A stretch of DNA of 41,378 bases, from positions 199,739 through 241,116 of the forward strand of contig CAIMDG010000002.1 in assembly GCA_903839725.1 (NCBI GenBank), read 5' to 3'. The position numbers and the translations under genes are program-made. Below the pieces are notes generated by a model. It did not search any database, was not told the origin of the DNA, and was given only the letters and a program-made list of their open reading frames with translations. Positions 12,861 through 27,572 of the stretch are shown piece after piece. The DNA comes from an uncultured bacterium (lineage in GTDB: Bacteria; Patescibacteriota; Minisyncoccia; Phycocordibacterales; PALSA-1337). Positions within the stretch are counted from its first letter, which is position 1, and the number at the start of each line of letters is the position of its first letter.

Positions 12861-12956
12861 GACAAGGCCTACCCTTGAACGAACCAAGTGAACAAAAAAT
12901 GGCTCAACGTGAGCCATTTTTTGTTTGGACTCATTCTGACAAGGTCTACCCTTGTC
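12861..12956. repeat. Two copies of a GACAAGG...CCTTGTC palindrome around a terminator
   Basis: GACAAGGCCTACCCTTGAA (12861-12879, degenerate) and GACAAGGTCTACCCTTGTC (12938-12956, perfect 7-5-7) lie on either side of the pyrophosphatase terminator. The second is followed by TTTTT. The same 19-mer forms the inner stem of the trigger factor terminator at 17510-17528. Confidence 0.6.
12893..12923. terminator. Bidirectional intrinsic terminator after hppA
   Basis: TGGCTCA-acg-TGAGCCA stem flanked by A6 on the left and T6 on the right (12893-12923), a perfect hairpin that can act on either strand. Confidence 0.85.
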
Positions 12957-17501: not shown

Positions 17502-17536
17502 AAAAAACCGACAAGGTCTACCCTTGTCGGTTTTTT
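17502..17536 (+). terminator. tig terminator containing the dispersed palindrome
   Basis: CCGACAAGG (17508-17516), loop TCTAC, CCTTGTCGG (17522-17530), with A6 before and T6 after. The core is the same 19-mer found at 12938-12956. Confidence 0.9.
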
Positions 17537-18314: not shown

Positions 18315-19094
18315 TTAATTACCCAATATCACAACCGAGAGAGCAGCGACCGCAGCAGTTTCAGCCCTCAAAACCTGATTGCCGAGGGATTTGGTAGGAA
18401 TTTCATGACTGTGAAACATGGTGATCTCATCTGCTGACCAGCCACCTTCTGGACCTATGAAAAGTCCCAGTGAAACATCTGACGTAATATCTGACTTAGA
18501 AAAAGCTGGTGCATCAGTGTGAAATGCAACGCATTGTAAATCGTCATTCCGGCGCAGGCCGGAATCCAGAGTCACCGACTCAGAATTATGTTCTTTCTCC
18601 TGGACCCCGTCCTTCGACGGGGTGACACAAAGAGCCTCCTTCAATGTAACAATTGGATAGATGATAGGCACACTACCTCTTCCAGACTGTTCACTTGCTT
18701 CAATGGCAATTTTTTTGAGTCGTTCCTCATTCAAGGACTTCTTTTCACTACGTTCAGCCATTACAGGAATAATGTGTGTGACACCGAGTTCTGTAGCTTT
18801 CTCGACTATCCATTCAAATGTATCTTTTTTCACGACCGCTGCGTACAAATACACATCACGAGTTGGCATATAATGACTTCTTCGTGCGGAAACGACATTC
18901 AAGGAAATAGTATCTTTACCGAAATCGACGATACTACATTCATAATCAGATCCTGAACCATCAAATACAATTACAAAATCCCCAGACTTCAAACGAAAAA
19001 CTCGACGGACCTGATTCACCAAGTCAGCCGAGCTAATCGTAAACTCTGTTTTATTTCCTATTACTTCAGTTGTGTAGAAACGGTGTATGCGCAT
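18315..19094 (-). CDS. rsmE: 16S rRNA m3U1498 methyltransferase RsmE with an in-frame palindromic insertion
   Basis: SPOUT methyltransferase acting on U1498 of 16S rRNA. The start at 19094 gives MRIHRFYTTEVIGN, the standard RsmE beginning; a longer frame adds 13 unrelated residues. An N-terminal PUA-like domain (RRVFRLKSGDFVIVFDGSG) is followed by the SPOUT domain with KKDTFEWIVEKATELGVTHI, RLKKIAIEASEQSGRG, the knot motif LGLFIGPEGGWSADEI and LGNQVLRAETAAVAAL. Residues ~156-184, between IYPIVTLKEAL and the strand before IGPEGG, are encoded by a pair of inverted palindromes and contain the low-complexity DSGLRRNDD. This insert is absent from the usual family pattern. It keeps the frame, so the enzyme may tolerate it as a surface loop. 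It is downstream of clpP on the same strand. Confidence 0.93.
   Translation of the reverse strand: MRIHRFYTTEVIGNKTEFTISSADLVNQVRRVFRLKSGDFVIVFDGSGSDYECSIVDFGKDTISLNVVSARRSHYMPTRDVYLYAAVVKKDTFEWIVEKATELGVTHIIPVMAERSEKKSLNEERLKKIAIEASEQSGRGSVPIIYPIVTLKEALCVTPSKDGVQEKEHNSESVTLDSGLRRNDDLQCVAFHTDAPAFSKSDITSDVSLGLFIGPEGGWSADEITMFHSHEIPTKSLGNQVLRAETAAVAALSVVILGN
18542..18627. repeat. Paired inverted palindromic element inside rsmE
   Basis: ATTCCGGC-gcag-GCCGGAAT (18546-18565), flanked by GTC and CCAG, is followed after about 35 bases by ACCCCGTC-cttc-GACGGGGT (18604-18623), flanked by CTGG and GAC. The flanks are mutually inverted (GTC...CCAG / CTGG...GAC), so the whole is a REP/BIME-like or RPE-like two-hairpin element. 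It lies in frame within the coding sequence. Confidence 0.75.
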
Positions 19095-20737: not shown

Positions 20738-22267
20738 ATGTCACTCAAAGAAGTTGCACTGTACCTCTCCATCGCGGGAGTTGTAGGCATTGCTCTTGGT
20801 TACTATCTGCGTTTGATCATTTCTTTAGGAAAAAAGGGTTCTATGGAACTTGAAATCAAGGAGATGCTCCTTGCCGCCAAGGAAGAATCCAAAAAGATCA
20901 CCGCTGACGCTGAGACAAAAGCTCACAAAATACTCGATGAAGCGAGGATAGAAGTAAAAGAAAAAGAAGACAAAATCCACCATACAGAGGATCGCCTCAT
21001 AAAAAAAGAGGATTTGCTTGATAAACGTCAAACTGATATCGACAAAGAAGTCGAACTTATCAAAACACGTGTCTCAGAAATCAAGACTATTCGTGAAAAA
21101 GCCGAGAAACTCGAATCGGATCGTTTACAGGCTCTCGAGAAAATATCTCAACTTTCAAAGGATGACGCGAAGAAAGAACTTATGACTATCGTCGAAAAGC
21201 AAAGTGAGGAAGATTTGCTCGTTCGCATGAATAAACTCGAGGCCCAAGGTGAAGAAACTCTCGAAGGAAAAGCGAGGGATATTCTTGCTGTTTCTATTCA
21301 GCGCCTCGCTTCATCAGTTGCTTCTGATGTTATGTCATCAATTGTTGAAATCCCTAGTGATGACGTTAAAGGCAAAATCATTGGTAAGGAAGGTCGTAAC
21401 ATCAAGGCTTTCGAACGTATTACTGGCGTTGAAGTCATGGTTGACGATACTCCTGGAGCAATCACTATCTCATCATTCGATCCAGTTCGTCGCCACACCG
21501 CTCGTATTGCCCTCCTCGAACTTATCAAGGATGGTCGTATTCAGCCTGCAAAAATAGAACAAGTTGTTGAAAAAGCAAAACAAGATATCAATAAAACAAT
21601 CAAGGAAAAAGGTGAAGCTGCTGCATACGAATGTGGTGTCATCGGCCTCGATCCACGTATACTCCTCATTCTCGGACGTCTCTACTTCCGTACCAGTTAT
21701 GGCCAGAATGTTTTGCAACACTCAGTAGAAATGGCACACATTGCAGGAATGATTGCTGAAGAAATTGGTGCGAATGTTCAAGTCGCAAAGGCTGGCGCCC
21801 TTCTTCATGACCTTGGAAAAGCACTCGACCATGAAGTTGCCGGTACTCACGTTGAGATCGGTCGTCGTATCTTGCAAAAGTTTGGTGCCCCTGAAGAAAT
21901 CATCAAAGCGATGCAGGCTCATCATGAAGAATATCCGTATGAAACAGTCGAATCACGTATCGTTCAGACTGCTGACGCTATCTCTGGTGCTCGTCCAGGA
22001 GCTCGTCGCGACAATGTCGAGAATTACCTCAAGCGTCTCGCTGATCTCGAAGCAACTGCCAATTCATTCCCTGGTATCGAAAAGTCATATGCCCTCCAAG
22101 CCGGCCGTGAAATCCGCATATTCGTGAAGCCAGAAGCAATGGGCGATCTCGAAGCAAAGACATTGGCGCGTGATATAGCACTCAAAATCGAAAAGGATCT
22201 CAAGTATCCTGGTGAAATCAAGGTTACTGTCATTCGTGAAACAAGAACGGTAGAGTTTGCGAGATAG
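20738..22267 (+). CDS. rny: Ribonuclease Y
   Basis: Membrane-tethered endoribonuclease that starts mRNA decay. The domain order is complete: an N-terminal membrane helix (residues ~6-30, LYLSIAGVVGIALGYYLRLI), a long coiled coil (~35-165), a KH domain (~205-265, DVKGKIIGKEGRNIKAFERI), an HD hydrolase domain with HSVEMAHIAGMIAEEI and the His-Asp pair 357-358 in LLHDLGKALDHE, and the conserved end [11 protein letters not shown]-like ([14 protein letters not shown]). Length 509 is usual. The last 49 coding bases plus the following 17 recur exactly at 22876-22941, and a diverged but synonymous copy is at 23896-23987. The 3' end therefore looks like the scar of repeated insertions, while the protein stays intact. 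Confidence 0.97.
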   Translation: MSLKEVALYLSIAGVVGIALGYYLRLIISLGKKGSMELEIKEMLLAAKEESKKITADAETKAHKILDEARIEVKEKEDKIHHTEDRLIKKEDLLDKRQTDIDKEVELIKTRVSEIKTIREKAEKLESDRLQALEKISQLSKDDAKKELMTIVEKQSEEDLLVRMNKLEAQGEETLEGKARDILAVSIQRLASSVASDVMSSIVEIPSDDVKGKIIGKEGRNIKAFERITGVEVMVDDTPGAITISSFDPVRRHTARIALLELIKDGRIQPAKIEQVVEKAKQDINKTIKEKGEAAAYECGVIGLDPRILLILGRLYFRTSYGQNVLQHSVEMAHIAGMIAEEIGANVQVAKAGALLHDLGKALDHEVAGTHVEIGRRILQKFGAPEEIIKAMQAHHEEYPYETVESRIVQTADAISGARPGARRDNVENYLKRLADLEATANSFPGIEKSYALQAGREIRIFVKPEAMGDLEAKTLARDIALKIEKDLKYPGEIKVTVIRETRTVEFAR

Positions 22268-22281
22268 GTGTGAAACTAATT
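22216..22281 (+). repeat. rny 3'-end repeat, copy A (in the intact gene)
   Basis: 66 bases, the last 49 sense bases of rny, its stop and 14 bases beyond, ending AAACTAATT. It is identical to copy B at 22876-22941, and after the shared AACTAATT the two flanks diverge. Possible left junction (attL-like) of an inserted cassette. Confidence 0.9.
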
Positions 22282-22286
22282 AGACA

Positions 22287-22318
22287 CAAAAAATCACCAA
22301 ATAGCTGGTGATTTTTTG
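22287..22318 (+). terminator. rny terminator (type 1)
   Basis: CAAAAAATCACCA (22287-22299), loop AATAGC, TGGTGATTTTTTG (22306-22318): a perfect 13-bp stem with a T-run. It differs from the terminator that follows repeat copies B and C. Confidence 0.9.
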
Positions 22319-22605: not shown

Positions 22606-22866
22606 ATGCTAAATATCTACTACAAGCCACAATTTATTCGTCAAATCAAAAAACTGAGCCCTGCGGCCCAAGATGAAGTTATTGAAAAAATCGAACTCCT
22701 CAAACACGAAAAAAATCATGCTGCCTTAAAAATCCATAAACTCCACGGAAAACTCAAGGGTACACTCAGTTTTTCAGTTAACTACAAAGACCGAATTGTA
22801 TTTGAATATGTCTCAAAAGACGAGATTTCTCTTCTTGTTATTGGGAATCACGATGTGTACAACTAA
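22606..22866 (+). CDS. RelE/ParE-superfamily toxin
   Basis: 86 residues with the RelE/ParE pattern: MLNIYYKPQFIRQIKKLSPAAQ (strand plus helix), EVIEKIELLKHEKNHAAL, KIHKLHGKLKGTLSFSV, YKDRIVFEYVSKD, and the end LLVIGNHDVYN, matching the GxHDxVY-like C-terminal strand of YafQ/RelE mRNA interferases. The basic residues and the C-terminal His/Asp/Tyr suggest ribosome-dependent mRNA cleavage rather than gyrase poisoning (inference). It is co-transcribed with the upstream RHH antitoxin. The stop at 22866 is only nine bases before repeat copy B. Confidence 0.88.
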   Translation: MLNIYYKPQFIRQIKKLSPAAQDEVIEKIELLKHEKNHAALKIHKLHGKLKGTLSFSVNYKDRIVFEYVSKDEISLLVIGNHDVYN

Positions 22867-22875
22867 TCTGCACGC

Positions 22876-22941
22876 AATCAAGGTTACTGTCATTCGTGAA
22901 ACAAGAACGGTAGAGTTTGCGAGATAGGTGTGAAACTAATT
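22876..22941 (+). repeat. rny 3'-end repeat, copy B
   Basis: Identical over 66 bases to copy A at 22216-22281 (offset exactly 660). It is not attached to any upstream rny sequence; it begins in the toxin gene's 3' spacer. It is followed by the terminator that also follows copy C, so it is a mosaic of the A coding end and the C terminator. Confidence 0.92.
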
Positions 22942-22980
22942 CAAAACAAAAAACCGCAGAACAGCGATTTTTTTGTTTTG
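22942..22980 (+). terminator. Terminator after copy B (type 2, decayed)
   Basis: CAAAACAAAAAACCGC, loop AGAACA, GCGATTTTTTTG then TTTTG. It matches the terminator after copy C (23988-24025) except for one base in the stem and one extra T. Confidence 0.75.
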
Positions 22981-23895: not shown

Positions 23896-23987
23896 AAAAA
23901 GGATCTCAAATATCCCGGTGAAATCAAGGTTACTGTCATCCGTGAAACACGAACGGTAGAATTCGCACGTTAGGTGTGAAACTAATT
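23896..23987 (+). repeat. rny 3'-end repeat, copy C (synonymously diverged)
   Basis: Encodes the last 25 residues of RNase Y (with [15 protein letters not shown] and TRTVEFAR then a stop at 23971-23973). Compared with copy A all differences that I see from DLKYPG to the stop are synonymous (for example CCT/CCC, ATT/ATC, AGA/CGA, GAG/GAA, TTT/TTC, GCG/GCA, AGA/CGT). The 17 noncoding bases TAG to AACTAATT-end are identical. It is now disconnected from any rny gene body. Confidence 0.92.
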
Positions 23988-24025
23988 CAAAACAAAAAAC
24001 CGCAGAACAGCGGTTTTTTGTTTTG
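23988..24025 (+). terminator. Terminator after copy C (type 2, intact)
   Basis: CAAAACAAAAAACCGC (23988-24003), loop AGAACA, GCGGTTTTTTGTTTTG (24010-24025). The outer CAAAAC/GTTTTG also pair, giving a 16-bp stem. It can act on both strands and so also serves the convergent SBP 2 gene ending at 24047. Confidence 0.85.
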
Positions 24026-27554: not shown

Positions 27555-27572
27555 TACTTTCAAAAGCATTTC

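Follow-up and report, generated by a model that had tools for sequence, protein, structure and literature searches.

The 86-nt stretch at positions 18542 to 18627 of the window (the whole 41,378-nt stretch of DNA that was analysed) is best read as a REP dimer of the CGTC-1 type that behaves, in a Patescibacteria genome of the Parcubacteria type, as a mobile but non-autonomous unit, and of which a stop-free 84-nt form would have inserted into a surface loop of the rsmE product and be translated there as a hydrophilic, unstructured peptide of 28 residues that the enzyme tolerates. We put the probability of this reading at roughly 0.93, based on dispersed homologous copies, absence at the rsmE site in relatives, maintenance of the reading frame, pairing kept by covariation and a disordered loop in the protein model.

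The host gene is found at 18315 to 19094 on the minus strand, and its identity as rsmE (16S rRNA m3U1498 methyltransferase, RsmE family) is firm from both family and structure matches: the 259-residue product scores above the TIGR00046 cut-off, matches Pfam PF04452, and has solved RsmE structures as its best matches in sequence and fold. The whole head-head dimer (18542 to 18627, not assigned to a strand, CGTC...GACA with the first tag base included at both ends) is made up of REP 1 at 18542 to 18569 on the plus strand (tag CGTC, stem ATTCCGGC/GCCGGAAT, loop GCAG, tail CCAG), a 30-nt spacer at 18570 to 18599 (minus strand), which is homologous but diverged among the rsmE, secA and parB copies, and the inverted REP 2 at 18600 to 18627 on the minus strand (tag TGTC, stem ACCCCGTC/GACGGGGT, loop GAAG, tail CCAG). 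The inverted pair of palindromes that the earlier note had located here inside rsmE is exact in both halves, with ATTCCGGC-GCAG-GCCGGAAT at 18546 to 18565 and ACCCCGTC-CTTC-GACGGGGT at 18604 to 18623, and both hairpins have perfect 8-bp stems and 4-nt loops. Each palindrome motif has a single occurrence in the window and was absent from all 100 shuffles, even when three mismatches were allowed. The 86-nt strand folds with a z-score of about -5 relative to dinucleotide shuffles. Apart from the hairpins, complementarity is limited to short stretches at the ends and at the tails.

The rsmE reading frame stays open across the element, the 84-nt core (GTC...GAC, 18543 to 18626, minus strand) being read as 28 codons which correspond to residues 157 to 184 (VTPSKDGVQEKEHNSESVTLDSGLRRND). 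The in-frame translation proposed in the earlier note holds, with its range of about 156 to 184 now refined, but the SGLRRNDD it had placed within the element extends one residue past it. The proposed position, after the first part of the SPOUT domain and ahead of the cofactor knot, is also right, the GPEGG motif of the knot being at residue 214. In the AlphaFold2 model (mean pLDDT 92, pTM 0.88), the 10-residue blocks within residues 161 to 180, between the helix 151-156 and the strand 186-191 and away from GPEGG in the sequence, average pLDDT values of 52 and 64. The model predicts the SPOUT fold to be intact and the loop next to it to be disordered, in keeping with the peptide loop that had been proposed, and a flexible loop at the surface is the best description of the insert. 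The best alignment with the Thermus RsmE (1v6z) sets 35 query residues against 7, which makes the query longer here by exactly 28.

By name, the relatives of the host RsmE are Parcubacteria, Nomurabacteria and Taylorbacteria MAGs, and it is on these names that the placement of the host is based. Neither the 28 residues nor the palindrome is present at the RsmE site in 28 related genomes, most of them from the same genus, and a search for relatives in which non-palindromic DNA encodes these residues, the sign of an old protein loop, found none. The closest RsmE (G015) has KEALDSKDGFELIAFH where the host genome has KEALC-(28 residues)-DLQCVAFH. There was no exact empty site, also not in G015, the nearest relative (~90% identical in SecA and ParB), and because the loops differ throughout even in this genome, the insertion boundaries and target duplication are not readable. 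In G029, a single CGTC hairpin (L033, 1468-1495) is located directly 5' of the rsmE start and is open in frame with rsmE.

The further copies that the earlier note had suggested searching for are present in the host genome (G000, 839 kb in 3 contigs): a DNA search gave two additional 84-nt copies of 88-89% identity, plus weaker ones, and secA and parB, two conserved genes, each contain one of the full copies in frame, with the same strand and frame as in rsmE and a shared peptide VTPSKDGVQ...SVTLDSGLRRND. The insert is absent from SecA of 28 same-genus species (the 29th, G017, has a dimer of its own) and from ParB of 27. A hairpin covariance model identified 14 hairpins in the host genome, which form seven dimers, all head-head with the tags outward; the CGTC family is low-copy in this genome, with the stem sequences ATTCCGGC, ACCCCGTC, ATACCGGC and ATGCCGTC coexisting. 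The stems in 21 hairpins are paired in 120/120 cells and covary at four positions, with compensatory change in 19 stem cells versus a shuffled mean of 3.8 (0/500 shuffles as high). A comparison of the rsmE, secA and parB copies gives 0-1 differences over the 54 hairpin positions and 7-10 over the 30 of the spacer, as would be expected if the spreading process needs the hairpins. Copies would arise when the dimer as a whole transposes by way of its hairpins, selection would remove insertions that are out of frame, contain stops or read as hydrophobic, and the peptide itself would probably have no function of its own.

Hairpin matches were found in 15/34 genomes of the same genus, with copy numbers ranging from zero to a hundred and no obvious transposase. 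The richest genome, G017, has about 101 matches; many of its copies (loci L162-L196) are intergenic with cores of 179-193 nt, dimers are in frame in hisS, pheT, leuS, uvrA, uvrB, rseP, secA and an rRNA-methyltransferase-like gene, and typA contains a degenerate dimer. Other same-genus genomes have in-frame dimers in valS (G029), polA (G003) and smc (G011), while single hairpins are located in comEC (G017), secA (G013) and valS (G020), the latter two gene names being assigned by eye from the alignment rather than by family search. The fetched stretches of the genus genomes contained 49 head-head dimers, 14 in verified genes and 35 others. Compared with these others, the genic dimers are shorter, with a median of 85 vs 158 nt (p 0.003), and leave more frames free of stops (mean 2.7 vs 0.8, p 2e-5), although this contrast is partly built in, as a genic copy needs at least one open frame. 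More telling is the choice of frame, since 13 of the 14 genic dimers use their most hydrophilic open frame where 6.3 are expected (P 8e-5, which assumes that open frames are equally likely and is approximate because copies share ancestry).

We expanded the hairpin search beyond the family to the order, where 52/397 genomes and 28/179 genera had matches, with the per-genome counts being lower bounds, whereas a search for the 28-aa peptide across the order returned the host genome only; hence the spacer and peptide are lineage-specific, but the hairpin is not. The order also includes a 64-nt dimer within a probable uvrC, where it is translated in another frame (CHPGEGRDP...WIPAFAGMT; L309 in G319), and a single hairpin within a probable polA (L316 in G435).

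Some loops carry insertions in more than one species. The SecA dimers of the host and G017 occupy one and the same loop, whose length is highly variable within the genus. A SecA tree from which this loop was left out calls for two separate gains, which its well-supported branches make unavoidable, and sister G015 lacks the insert; on this tree, the SecA loop gained dimers twice independently. From the alignment, the dimer in ValS of G029 and the single REP in that of G020 are at the same site. In other species, the same loops (SecA of G033, L232; ParB of G004, L279; RsmE of G004, L013) contain residues such as PPFSKGD/FEKGGG, with several GGTCCGACC-type hairpins at L013, and are possibly further in-frame palindromic families. 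Whether the CGTC dimer of Patescibacteria has been shaped for genic life, as a short, stop-free, hydrophilic form which is a recurrent loop donor to essential proteins and hits the same SecA and ValS loops repeatedly, is in our view doubtful.

With regard to what moves the element, the host genome contains one RAYT-like Y1_Tnp gene (C2:109212-109436), and RAYTs are the presumed movers of GTAG REPs (PMC3733652). Mobilisation of the CGTC dimer by the RAYT transposase of the host itself is nevertheless unlikely and not supported: the Y1_Tnp locus carries another palindrome, ACAAGGYCTACCCTTGT, with a GTAG core; there is no CGTC REP near Y1_Tnp in the genus (0/27 loci); G017 lacks Y1_Tnp despite its richness in hairpins; and the presence of Y1_Tnp is not associated with CGTC hairpins across the genus (10/15 vs 11/19, p 0.73). 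The ACAAGGYCTACCCTTGT family, with 18 genome-wide matches of which five are at or near the Y1_Tnp gene, resembles a GTAG REP system equipped with a transposase of its own, and is also represented in the window at 12862-12878, 12939-12955 and 17511-17527, as well as at L039. For the CGTC dimer no mobilising enzyme was found within the Y1_Tnp family, and the absence of a link to this family is in line with the study of Di Nocera et al. 2013 (PMC3733652), in which no transposase dedicated to CGTC REPs was found. A phage-borne element was rejected, as there was no match in the phage collection, and the plasmid collection gave three records only, all with hairpin-length matches, two of which are labelled Neisseria gonorrhoeae; the CGTC-1 repeat dRS3 is known in Neisseria (PMC3733652). 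Separately, the window contains a 127-nt direct repeat in three copies (22191-22317, 22851-22977 and 23897-24023). Two of these copies have a terminator-like CCGC...GCGGTTTTTT hairpin as their end, and hairpins of a similar kind occur at 27572 and 32430.

We consider it very unlikely that the insert is kept for a function, be it a useful peptide or a hairpin in the rsmE mRNA acting on translation or stability. Perfect hairpins next to a diverging spacer could be taken that way, as could the use of the same site in different species for SecA and ValS (one ValS having only a single REP), but the intergenic copies keep the same hairpins, and conservation is therefore better explained by the element's own spread; furthermore, related species do without the insert in rsmE, secA and parB, and a known structured RNA was rejected with no match to any Rfam family. 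An old lineage-specific RsmE loop which is encoded by palindromic DNA by chance could draw on the natural length variation, within the genus, of the loop that joins helix 151-156 to strand 186-191, but is rejected as extremely improbable, since the same DNA is present in secA, parB and intergenic sites, the insert is missing in relatives, and the stems are perfect and covarying.

Palindromic elements inserted in frame became known from Rickettsia first and from some other bacteria later. We found no reports of CGTC-type in-frame elements in Patescibacteria in a literature search of limited extent, and CGTC-1 elements are apparently new for this group. The presence of the same element type in essential genes of streamlined Patescibacteria shows that this route by which conserved proteins gain peptide is not confined to a single lineage. 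The genus offers many gains at known loci, at which tolerance, frame choice and site choice are measurable, while a relative with about 100 copies and no RAYT-type (Y1_Tnp) gene isolates the question of what moves CGTC REPs.

Compared with known systems, the element resembles the REPINs and GTAG REPs mobilised by RAYTs in having two inverted hairpins that spread as a unit, but its tag is GTC rather than GTAG and none of the copies examined has a RAYT beside it. With RPE-1, which in the account of Ogata 2000 given in PMC2229807 is one long stem-loop of 105-146 bp with terminal inverted repeats, it shares the ability to insert in frame into conserved genes and do little damage, but it consists of two separate 8-bp hairpins; the same review includes one RPE-bearing enzyme shown to be translated and active.

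The element fits a CGTC-1 REP dimer in every feature tested. As described by Di Nocera et al. 2013 (PMC3733652), CGTC-1 REPs consist of a tag, an 8-bp stem, a 4-nt loop and a CCA tail, with CGTC, often TGTC or CCTC, as terminal tag and A-T pairs in the first and second stem position, and are mostly head-head dimers with a conserved 20-100 bp spacer which do not flank transposase genes. Here, GTC is present in 21/21 hairpins with T or C as first base in 20/21, the first pair is A-T in all 15 distinct stem sequences (with T-A as second pair in 12 and C-G in 3), and 21/21 have the 4-nt loop and CCA tail; all 14 hairpins in the seven dimers are head-head, the 30-nt spacer is homologous in three genic copies, and for Y1_Tnp the 27 loci are free of flanking CGTC REPs. 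Genic CGTC-1 copies add 20-30 residues (PMC3733652), with uvrA, uvrB, DNA polymerase I and tRNA synthetases represented in both data sets, and both are without a dedicated transposase. Unlike the CGTC-1 REPs of that study, for which Proteobacteria, Chlorobi, Bacteroidetes, Spirochaetes and Thermotogae were given as phyla, the present ones are hosted by Patescibacteria, have very few copies in the host genome, and have several stem sequences side by side.

Finally, the likeness to Rickettsia palindromic elements raised by the earlier note is closer than analogy, given the CGTC-1 anatomy and the equation of R. conorii RPE-6 with CGTC-1 and RPE-4 with CGTC-4 in PMC3733652, a link that rests on this equation. 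The likeness applies to the RPE-4/6 type, but not to the RPE-1 type nor to a host in Rickettsia or Wolbachia, as the relatives are Parcubacteria-type MAGs. In R. japonica, RPE-4, RPE-6 and RPE-7 are at the same, solvent-exposed sites of orthologues (PMC3767692), and the copies described here are likewise in frame at solvent-exposed places of conserved, otherwise normal genes, with ATGAC ends and recurrent orthologue sites, and with phenylalanyl-tRNA synthetase beta carrying one in both groups; they differ in belonging to another phylum, and in that a tree supports independent gains within one SecA loop.
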